Assembly (NCBI GenBank): GCA_944392785.1
Contig: CALXXW010000024.1
Coordinates: 73,744-109,070, forward strand
Source of the DNA: an uncultured Alphaproteobacteria bacterium
GTDB taxonomy: Bacteria; Pseudomonadota; Alphaproteobacteria; CAAHEQ01; UBA3637
Direction of reading: 5' to 3'
DNA length: 35,327 nucleotides
In this document: piece after piece, positions 13,657-30,462 of the stretch
Layout: every line of letters begins with the position of its first letter
How positions within the stretch are numbered: the first letter of the stretch is position 1
Made by a program: the position numbers and the translations under genes
Notes under the pieces: model-generated
What the model was told of the DNA's origin: nothing
Seen by the model: the letters and a program-made list of their open reading frames with translations, nothing else
Database searches by the model: none

Positions 13657-14814
13657 TTAGGGGATGTTTGACCATATTAATCCCTGCTTTTCGGGATCAT
13701 AGGACAACGCCATTTTTCCCATACCAAAAGCCAACACCCGCTGACCGAAAACATGATAGCGCCATCCGCTTAGACAGGGCACATGTTGATTTCCTTGCGC
13801 CAAAAGGCTCAATTCATCCGTAGAAGCAATAATTCTGGGAGCAACACCGATTTCTGCGGCGGAAACATCCAGCAACAGCCGATAAACCTCCCATAGACTA
13901 CGCTGATACGGCAATAACACTTGCTTTTTTTCCGTCAGGTTTTGAGGATATTGTTCGACAGGAACGGCTTGTGCCGTTTTCAAGATGTGTAATAATTCCA
14001 CTGCCAACGCGCTTTTTCCAAATCCTTTTGGAAAATGACGCAACTTGTCGAAATCGGCCGGCGTATCTACCGGGGCAACAGCCAGCTCAAGCAAAGCCTC
14101 ATCCTTTAAGATATGTTTACGCGGTTTATTTTTTGTTTTAGCCATCTGTTCGCGCCATGCGGCCAAACGTGACAGGACATAAAGCTGCTTCTCTTTTTTT
14201 AAAGGTGCCTTTATTTTACGCCAAGCTGTTTCGTTATCTACCTCATATGTTTTGGGATCTGTCAGAACGGCCATTTCCTCAATTAACCAATCACGCCGGC
14301 CATTATTATCCAAACGGTTTTGCAAATTCAGATACACATCTCGCAAATATGTCACATCATGTAAAGCATACGTCTCCTGCTCCGAGCTTAAAGGACGTCG
14401 TGACCAATCTGTATAACGCTGTCCTTTATCCAAATGAATTCCCAAACAATCATACACCAACTGCTGATAGCCCACCATGTCGGTATATCCACAGACCATA
14501 GCCGCCACCTGGGTATCAAACAATGGTGTCGGTATCTGGTGAGTCAGCATATAGAAAATCTCAATATCCTGCCGCGCCGCATGAAAAACCTTCATGACAT
14601 GCGGATTTTGGAATAATTGAAAGAGCGGGCTTAAATCCAAGTCCCGACTCAGTGCATCAACGCACCAAGCCTCTTGCGGACTGGCGATTTGAATTAAACA
14701 CAATTCGGGATAATATGTTTTCTCACGTATAAATTCCGTATCGACGGTCATAAAAGGATGTGTCGCAAAACGCTGACAAACCTCTTTTAACAAATCTGTT
14801 GTTTGAATCATCAT
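13657..14814 (-). CDS. rnd: Ribonuclease D
   Basis: A 3'-5' exoribonuclease that trims tRNA precursors and other small RNAs. The 385-residue product has a complete DEDDy active site: D25-x-E27 in VDTEF, D83 in ARQDIEIF, and Y149-x3-D153 in YALHD. An HRDC-like domain follows at about residues 205-290 (AWREQMAKTKNKPRKHILKDE and following). Length is near E. coli RNase D (375). The start at 14814 has no ribosome binding site; a promoter ends 9 bases upstream, suggesting a leaderless message. It is divergent from a CCA-adding-type enzyme, another tRNA 3'-end enzyme. Confidence 0.93.
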   Translation of the reverse strand: MMIQTTDLLKEVCQRFATHPFMTVDTEFIREKTYYPELCLIQIASPQEAWCVDALSRDLDLSPLFQLFQNPHVMKVFHAARQDIEIFYMLTHQIPTPLFDTQVAAMVCGYTDMVGYQQLVYDCLGIHLDKGQRYTDWSRRPLSSEQETYALHDVTYLRDVYLNLQNRLDNNGRRDWLIEEMAVLTDPKTYEVDNETAWRKIKAPLKKEKQLYVLSRLAAWREQMAKTKNKPRKHILKDEALLELAVAPVDTPADFDKLRHFPKGFGKSALAVELLHILKTAQAVPVEQYPQNLTEKKQVLLPYQRSLWEVYRLLLDVSAAEIGVAPRIIASTDELSLLAQGNQHVPCLSGWRYHVFGQRVLAFGMGKMALSYDPEKQGLIWSNIP

Positions 14815-14823
14815 GGTGACGAC

Positions 14824-14852
14824 ATTTTACACCTTTTTTCATTGCATGACAA
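14824..14852 (-). promoter_or_regulatory. Promoter of rnd (leaderless)
   Basis: Minus-strand TTGTCA (14852-14847) and TAAAAT (14829-14824), 17-base spacer. The expected start near 14817 is only two or three bases before the ATG at 14814. Confidence 0.7.
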
Positions 14853-14870
14853 GCCCCGCTTTGATATAAT
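14842..14870 (+). promoter_or_regulatory. Promoter of the cca-type gene (leaderless)
   Basis: TTGCAT (14842-14847), 17-base spacer, TATAAT (14865-14870), with an extended -10 TG at 14862-14863. The expected start coincides with the ATG at 14878. Its -35 box shares a base with the -35 box of the divergent rnd promoter. Confidence 0.8.
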
Positions 14871-14877
14871 AACACGT

Positions 14878-15708
14878 ATGACAATCCGGTGGCATCCTCA
14901 TCTTGAAAAAATATATCTTCTTTTAAACGGGCACATGCGTCTGGTAGGGGGCTGTGTCCGAGATATCCTGTTAGGGAAAACGCCGACAGACGTGGATATT
15001 GCCACTCCTTTGCACCCCGAGCAGGTGTGTGACAGACTGATTGCCGGAGGAATTCGTGTGATTCCAACCGGCATGGCCTTTGGGACGGTGACGGCTCAAT
15101 TTCCCGAGACCAAATATGAAATTACTTCACTACGTCGCGATATTGAAACAGACGGCCGACACCCGCGTATTGCCTATACCGATTCCTATCAAGAAGATGC
15201 TTCACGCCGTGATTTTACAATTAATGCCTTGTATCAAGACAGAGAGGGTATCTTATACGATTATCATCAGGGATTACAAGATTTAGCCCAACGACACATC
15301 CGCTTTATCGGAGATCCCGAGCAGCGTATCCATGAGGATTATCTGCGCATTTTACGTTATTTTCGTTTTTGGTCTTCTATTGAAAACAGGCAGCCGGACA
15401 ATCAGGTATTAGATGCTATCTACCGCCAGAAAGAGGGGCTGGGACGTCTGTCTATCGAAAGACGATGTCAAGAGCTCTTTAAGTTATTGGGAACACCTCA
15501 AGCGGAAAAAGCTCTTCACATCATGGAACATCTGGAATTACTTCCCTTGATTGCACCTCATTTGTCTTTGCCTCATTTTAAAGGCCAGACAGCCGTAGAG
15601 CGTTTTGCTTCTATGACGGTTGACCAAGATTTAAGTTTCTATAAACTGTCCCGTCGCTTGACCAGACAAATTCAAGAAGAATGGCAAAAATTTAAAAAGG
15701 AAACATAA
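14878..15708 (+). CDS. CCA-adding-type tRNA nucleotidyltransferase (short form)
   Basis: Member of the class II polymerase-beta-like family that adds or repairs the CCA end of tRNA; poly(A) polymerases share the fold. Head motifs are LVGGCVRDILLG with the metal-binding DVDIAT, followed by RRDFTINALY and the neck GDPEQRIHEDYLRILRYFRF. From the ATG at 14878 the product is 276 residues, clearly shorter than the 380-420 I expect for alphaproteobacterial members; the C-terminal body/tail seems reduced and there is no open continuation after 15708. The frame is open upstream to 14803, but a strong promoter inside that segment makes 14878 the start. No ribosome binding site precedes it, consistent with a leaderless message. 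Confidence 0.88.
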   Translation: MTIRWHPHLEKIYLLLNGHMRLVGGCVRDILLGKTPTDVDIATPLHPEQVCDRLIAGGIRVIPTGMAFGTVTAQFPETKYEITSLRRDIETDGRHPRIAYTDSYQEDASRRDFTINALYQDREGILYDYHQGLQDLAQRHIRFIGDPEQRIHEDYLRILRYFRFWSSIENRQPDNQVLDAIYRQKEGLGRLSIERRCQELFKLLGTPQAEKALHIMEHLELLPLIAPHLSLPHFKGQTAVERFASMTVDQDLSFYKLSRRLTRQIQEEWQKFKKET

Positions 15709-15783: not shown

Positions 15784-16239
15784 ATGATGTCGATTTCACC
15801 GAACGAATCCGGACGCAGTTTGATTGAAATGTTGGCCGTTATTTCTATTATCAGTATTATTACCGTCGGCGCCGTTAATGGTCTGGGATATGCCAATCGC
15901 TTGTTTCGAGCGACAGAAATTCAAAATGATGTCGAAGCATTAGCAAGCGGTGTTATCGACCTTTATTCATGGCAACGTGATTACAACAATCTGAACATGA
16001 CCACCATTTGTGATAATGATATTCTTATGAGAGACTGCGTTAATAATGCTTTCCCGGCCCCCGGAGCCGATACCATAATCGTTCAAAAGACGGGGGGTGG
16101 TGATAGCTTTGAAATTGTTGTCACGGGACTTCCCCGTCTCACGTGCAATGCTCTAAAGGACAAGAAATGGATTTATGTCCAGGCACCGACCGAAGCCTGC
16201 AACGGGGATCAAAACACGTTAAGTTTTGCGGCGAATTAG
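15784..16239 (+). CDS. Type IVb-like prepilin (PilS-like), stand-alone
   Basis: The 151-residue product has a short leader ending in Gly10, then SLIE with the conserved Glu at +5, then about 22 hydrophobic residues: a class III (prepilin peptidase) signal. The +1 residue is Arg instead of the usual Phe or Met. The globular part has four Cys (76, 85, 121, 139). GLPRLTC (115-121), Trp129 and C139-x4-N-x-L-x-F resemble the C-terminal lobe of PilS-type IVb pilins. GGAG at 15776-15779 fits either ATG at 15784 or 15787. No secretion ATPase, platform protein or prepilin peptidase is nearby, so it is an orphan pilin or minor pilin. The same C-terminal pattern occurs in the cysteine-repeat protein at the right edge. 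Confidence 0.8.
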   Translation: MMSISPNESGRSLIEMLAVISIISIITVGAVNGLGYANRLFRATEIQNDVEALASGVIDLYSWQRDYNNLNMTTICDNDILMRDCVNNAFPAPGADTIIVQKTGGGDSFEIVVTGLPRLTCNALKDKKWIYVQAPTEACNGDQNTLSFAAN

Positions 16240-30431: not shown

Positions 30432-30462
30432 GCTTTTCCTTTCTGTTTTACCTGTCATTTTA

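Follow-up and report, generated by a model that had tools for sequence, protein, structure and literature searches.

The window, that is, the whole stretch of 35,327 nucleotides analyzed here, contains two divergently oriented genes, rnd and cca, whose start codons (ATG in both cases) are separated by 63 bp (Table 1). The gap holds two back-to-back promoters, with a TTGCAT-17-TATAAT-7-ATG layout for cca and a TTGTCA-17-TAAAAT-9-ATG layout for rnd. The sequence-only reading had described two outward-pointing promoters with 17-bp spacers, -35 boxes sharing base 14847, and -10 boxes ending 7-9 bp before the ATG, and its coordinates were exact. The two overlapping -35 boxes form a TTGN5CAA core, which is an inverted repeat, and the two -10 boxes lie 35 bp apart. 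The -10 box of cca is of the extended type, with TG one base upstream (TG-A-TATAAT). A simple promoter scan of the window listed the rnd promoter (10 of 12 consensus matches) and missed that of cca, because TTGCAT fits TTGACA at only three of six positions; the case for the cca -35 box is carried by its conserved TTG.

Table 1. Genes and promoter elements at the rnd/cca locus (positions within the window)
Feature	Position	Strand	Basis or remark
rnd, ribonuclease D	13657-14814	-	385 aa; ATG at 14814
cca, class II CCA/poly(A) nucleotidyltransferase-type gene	14878-15708	+	276 aa; ATG at 14878
cca -35, TTGCAT	14842-14847	+	sequence; TTG kept there in 19/20 family loci
cca -10, TATAAT	14865-14870	+	sequence; 6-7 bp before ATG in 20/20 family loci
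cca -10-to-ATG gap, 7 bp	14871-14877	+	spacing
rnd -35, TTGTCA	14852-14847	-	sequence, simple promoter scan
rnd -10, TAAAAT	14829-14824	-	sequence, simple promoter scan
rnd -10-to-ATG gap, 9 bp	14815-14823	-	spacing rule
TTGN5CAA core from two overlapping -35 boxes	14842-14852		19/20 adjacent family loci

A -10 box ending 6-7 bp before the A of an ATG places the usual transcription start on that A. The cca transcript was predicted to start at A14878 or at most one base away, and the rnd transcript between 14817 (3-nt leader) and 14814 (no leader), which would put the two starts ~61-64 bp apart. No Shine-Dalgarno match of at least 5 nt was found upstream of either ATG in the window, in agreement with the earlier claim that neither gene has a ribosome binding site; the sole Shine-Dalgarno-like match at cca is 4 nt long and sits at the -10 box. 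Folding of the two 5' ends (55 nt each) gave z values of 1.92 and 0.65, which is neutral or at best mildly in favor of leaderless starts. Directly 3' of cca, positions 15784-16239 encode a small protein that resembles pilins and has a methylation motif at its N terminus; it scored just under the Pfam cut-off.

Identity of the two enzymes and genomic background

The rnd product could be firmly assigned to ribonuclease D by homology: it scored 377 bits against TIGR01388 (cut-off 298.95), contains the DNA_pol_A_exo1 and HRDC domains, and its homologues begin at the same residue. Two loci with named records among its matches belong to rumen Alphaproteobacteria. The cca product contains the PolyA_pol (PF01743) and PolyA_pol_RNAbd (PF12627) domains and is encoded by the only gene of this type in the genome. 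It scored higher against the CCA model (167.8 bits, cut-off 290) than against PcnB (136.6 bits, cut-off 305.65), reaching neither cut-off, and its best solved relative was the human mitochondrial CCA enzyme (E 1.6e-51). With 276 aa, it is without the C-terminal part of the solved enzymes (~390-450 aa). Among its relatives, many open frames have ~380-430 aa and others ~250-310 aa. Since CCA is encoded in all 14 tRNA genes sampled (395 kb of the genome, L064-L083 plus the window), CCA addition here would mean repair. The protein is thus best read, from these similarities, as a CCA-adding or repair enzyme. The earlier claim that both products act on the tRNA 3' end therefore stands firmly for RNase D; for its partner, the CCA-adding assignment is favored over PcnB, falls below the curated cut-offs and would have to be reworded as repair.

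The genome containing the window (G000) is a 1.12-Mb draft in 25 contigs, and its statistics were obtained from 395 kb (311 ORFs). In this sample, Shine-Dalgarno matches of at least 5 nt preceded 145 of 309 first-ATG starts as against 129 of 2031 internal ATGs, 95 of the 309 starts had no Shine-Dalgarno match, and the distance from upstream -10-like boxes to the first ATG was mostly 20-35 bp. A search of this incomplete genome for the 16S tail pattern gave no match. The genome uses Shine-Dalgarno initiation widely, and the rnd/cca pair is a minority arrangement. Full promoters (score of at least 9) with a -10 box ending 4-11 bp before the ATG were present at 12 of 306 starts compared with 19 of 2042 internal ATGs, an excess so small that a general leaderless habit of this genome was rejected as the cause. 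By promoter position, further leaderless candidates are L073:18920 (-), L073:8056 (-) and L068:1129 (+), which, from their sequences, may be xseA, miaA and parE, respectively, as well as window position 30458 (-).

Promoter arrangement among family members

We then compared the locus among the 33 genomes of family f1 (G000-G032; 0.9-1.8 Mb). Strong matches to both genes were found in 28 genomes, and in all 28 the genes were divergent on one contig; the other five (G004, G010, G027, G028 and G031) were left out because one or both genes gave a weak match or none, or were located on a different contig or at the end of one. Twenty pairs were adjacent (gaps of 58-76 bp), one had a longer gap (G008) and seven were ~1 kb apart.

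In the adjacent pairs, where the promoter search was left free from 2 to 30 bp from each ATG, the arrangement of the window recurred, which answers the call of the sequence-only reading to look for it in related genomes. First, the gap measured 58-64 bp in 18 of 20 pairs, and the -35 boxes overlapped by exactly one base in 19, covering seven genera by their labels; the family genomes being related, this figure does not represent 19 independent events. Second, the cca -10 box ended 6 bp (14 genomes) or 7 bp (six genomes) before the ATG and that of rnd 6-11 bp before it in 19 of 20, with -35/-10 spacings of 17 for cca (19/20) and 16-17 for rnd (20/20). Third, close -10 boxes, the one-base overlap and the lack of Shine-Dalgarno matches occurred together in 18 of the 20 pairs. 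Of 4000 shuffled gaps, 4 satisfied all criteria, and the arrangement is not a product of chance. A pyrimidine preceded the cca start codon (position -1) in 19 of 20 family loci. The two exceptions differed in kind. In G011 (L040) the rnd leader is 16 bp longer and an AAGGA motif is present with the -35 overlap kept, an apparent switch from a leaderless to a leadered rnd as judged from its sequence, and in G007, where the gap measures 76 bp, the two -10 boxes are near their ATGs and the -35 boxes do not overlap. G003 shows a 5-nt Shine-Dalgarno-like match at rnd that coincides with the -10 box itself and would stay untranscribed.

Protein similarity within the family starts at or adjoining the annotated ATG for rnd and cca alike. 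This bears on the alternative in which the message has a true leader and translation begins farther downstream, at a codon served by a Shine-Dalgarno sequence. Such a codon could be sought in the second in-frame ATG of cca, at codon 20, but the proteins of the family can be aligned from the first ATG onward, the later methionine is missing from many relatives, and no Shine-Dalgarno-like sequence was seen by eye before the codon-20 ATG. An internal start, which the sequence-only reading had named as an outcome against it, thus appears exceedingly improbable. Taken together, the family comparison strongly supports the earlier prediction of a leaderless start for both genes.

The pairs that are not tightly joined provided a second view. 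By eye, a TA-type -10 box was located 6-9 bp from the cca ATG in all eight of them (the seven separated pairs and G008). The rnd layout TTG-17-TATAAC-6-ATG was kept in five of seven separated genomes (G022, G016, G014, G005 and G023; by eye), with the -35 box lying within the terminal part of the gene upstream; G008 also has a close rnd -10 box, giving six of eight overall at 6-7 bp (by eye). In the remaining two, the rnd start is farther from the -10 box (by eye): G018 has a Shine-Dalgarno-like AGAGG sequence before it, and in G009 no evident Shine-Dalgarno sequence was seen by eye in the longer leader. The persistence of close -10 boxes in separated pairs indicates that leaderlessness is independent of the back-to-back layout. 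In the seven separated genomes, rnd and cca have between them a gene of ~245 aa, which ends just before rnd; its G022 copy (L102) had no Pfam match.

These observations also bear on the possibility that TTGN5CAA is mainly a transcription-factor operator, the true promoters lying elsewhere and giving leadered messages translated by non-Shine-Dalgarno initiation. Such a role would suit an inverted repeat, in a genome where 95 of 309 starts are without a Shine-Dalgarno match. It would leave unexplained, however, the constant -35/-10 spacing of both genes, the placement of the -10 box 6-11 bp before the ATG at every start but one, and the retention of TTG-17-TATAA near the ATG of separated rnd genes that are without the other half-site. 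We consider an operator of this kind very unlikely.

In all eight genomes whose pairs are not tightly joined (L016, L017, L018, L020, L021, L024, L025 and L060), the -35 region of cca contains a conserved element, AACGACTCGnnTTTT, located 19-20 bp upstream of the cca -10 box. CGACTCG, which contains a GANTC site, is present in seven of the eight. When nine genomes were searched for exact matches, six had a single one, at cca, G022 had two, and none was found in G008 or G000.

RNase D promoters in other lineages

To place the family in context, we collected the rnd starts of 85 other alphaproteobacterial genomes, for the most part a single one from each family. In 45 of them, a -10 box of the TA type had its end 4-12 bp from the ATG, compared with 99 of 1700 control windows taken further upstream, and 42 of the 45 boxes were 6-10 bp from the ATG. 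The other 40 starts failed this strict rule; with a lenient choice of ATG, the number with a close -10 box rose to 54 of 85. No Shine-Dalgarno match of at least 5 nt was found at any of the 85 starts, and the start codon was ATG in 81 of the 85 genomes. A pyrimidine at -1 was about equally common with a close -10 box (31/45) and without one (26/40), showing no difference.

For 48 or more of these 85 genomes, the gene divergently upstream of rnd was aspS, a lower bound as most stretches covered only ~350 bp. Together with murA, aspS served as a negative control. Within the same 48 intergenic regions, a close -10 box was found at rnd in 28 and at aspS in one (Fisher p 5e-10), whereas Shine-Dalgarno matches of at least 5 nt occurred at 13 aspS starts and at no rnd start. 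No close -10 box was found at 29 murA starts, and only three of 284 first ATGs of five class genomes had TATA at 4-11 bp. For cca outside family f1, only two of 23 starts, many of them uncertain, had a close -10 box, and an extension of leaderless cca to the class was rejected. Thus, by this comparison, leaderless cca looks like an innovation of family f1, and leaderless rnd looks ancestral or repeatedly kept in Alphaproteobacteria.

Outside the class, the strict -10 rule detected none of 20 rnd starts. In one such family (f134; L272 and L274-L285), a TANNNT box, mostly TAGGCT, was located 6-7 bp before the rnd ATG in 12 of 13 loci, which suggests from sequence a second lineage with leaderless rnd; this looser rule was set post hoc, after TAGGCT had been noticed by eye in this single family, and it detected none of seven starts in other out-of-class families.

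The class data are also relevant to the idea that the whole arrangement is a by-product of genome compaction, with neither overlap nor leaderlessness having functional meaning. The size of the family genomes (0.9-1.8 Mb) is in line with it, as is a gap near the minimum able to hold two promoters. On the other hand, rnd in other genomes of the class keeps its leaderless-type -10 box despite gaps to aspS of mostly 92-259 bp, and within the family both genes mostly keep their close -10 boxes after separation. We regard compaction as the full account as doubtful, if still a real possibility; it may account for how the one-base -35 overlap as such arose.

Proposed explanation and relation to known systems

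Very probably, the 63-bp gap consists of hardly more than two back-to-back housekeeping-type promoters from which both messages are produced leaderless (leaders of 0-3 nt). Each -10 box is about as far from its own ATG (6-9 bp) as it normally is from a transcription start, and RNA polymerase would start at the A of the ATG or within about three bases of it. Both messages would then offer no space for a Shine-Dalgarno sequence and be translated without one, perhaps by 70S-type initiation. With one base common to both -35 boxes, simultaneous occupancy by two polymerases is not expected and, if they cannot share the region, the promoters would exclude each other; competition between the rnd and cca promoters is plausible from this geometry. 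In evolutionary terms, rnd may have had a leaderless promoter since an early stage of the class, with aspS as its usual divergent neighbor, and in family f1 cca may have come to face rnd and then gained a leaderless promoter of its own.

A more far-reaching reading, which we think rather unlikely, is that RNase D leaderlessness is an old and selected trait, covering Alphaproteobacteria and one or more further families of the phylum, and that the -35 overlap, by mutual exclusion, determines how much trimming enzyme is made relative to repair enzyme. If true, trimming and, in family f1, repair would be tied to Shine-Dalgarno-independent initiation, and production of RNase D and the repair enzyme would continue even if canonical initiation failed. 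Reports of leaderless genes usually give totals for the whole genome of one species. A named gene such as rnd, with a leaderless position kept across a class and a leadered partner in the shared intergenic region, makes it possible to ask cleanly whether leaderlessness is under selection. The family supplies natural experiments in its joined pairs, separated pairs and rare longer rnd leaders (two of which contain Shine-Dalgarno-like motifs), and the one-base -35 overlap offers a compact system for testing promoter exclusion.

Neither leaderless messages nor divergent promoters are new as such. In the incomplete literature collection searched, which was without supplements, neither a conserved leaderless rnd nor the shared -35 design was reported. 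Leaderless mRNAs number 375 in Caulobacter, 171 in S. meliloti, 62 in G. oxydans and 119 in Z. mobilis, as given in the available text of these papers (PMC4117421, PMC3616915, PMC5756330 and PMC7566282, respectively), whose main texts, as available, contain no match for rnd or RNase D. The same sources, as far as their available text goes, define leaderless messages by a 5' end within 3 nt (PMC5756330) or 5 nt (PMC7566282) of the start codon, describe leaderless initiation at normal efficiency in Caulobacter (PMC4117421), and assign AUG starts to the leaderless messages of S. meliloti (PMC3616915), with which the predominance of ATG at rnd in the class fits.

Judged by those available texts, the rnd/cca pair resembles these alphaproteobacterial messages in having a -10 box right before the ATG, no Shine-Dalgarno sequence and an ATG start, and differs in that two divergent genes share one promoter block and are predicted from sequence to be leaderless. 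The bidirectional promoters of E. coli and Salmonella, in the portions of the reports available (PMC12825309, PMC10268837), are similar in that one bound polymerase should block the other; in E. coli, competition is slight at the basal level and strong when one direction is strengthened (PMC12825309, available portion). They are different in sharing a -10 element, with starts 7-25 bp apart, whereas at rnd/cca no -10 box is shared and the -35 boxes touch instead. The rnd/aspS region of other Alphaproteobacteria is like rnd/cca in that the rnd side is often of the leaderless type and the partner is a tRNA enzyme, but a close aspS -10 box occurs in only one of 48 regions, the gaps are mostly 92-259 bp, and, by eye, a -35 overlap of exactly one base is not typical. 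Compared with published leaderless sets, the present analysis follows one leaderless position across a class, and this rnd pattern is a more interesting part of the results than the window pair itself.
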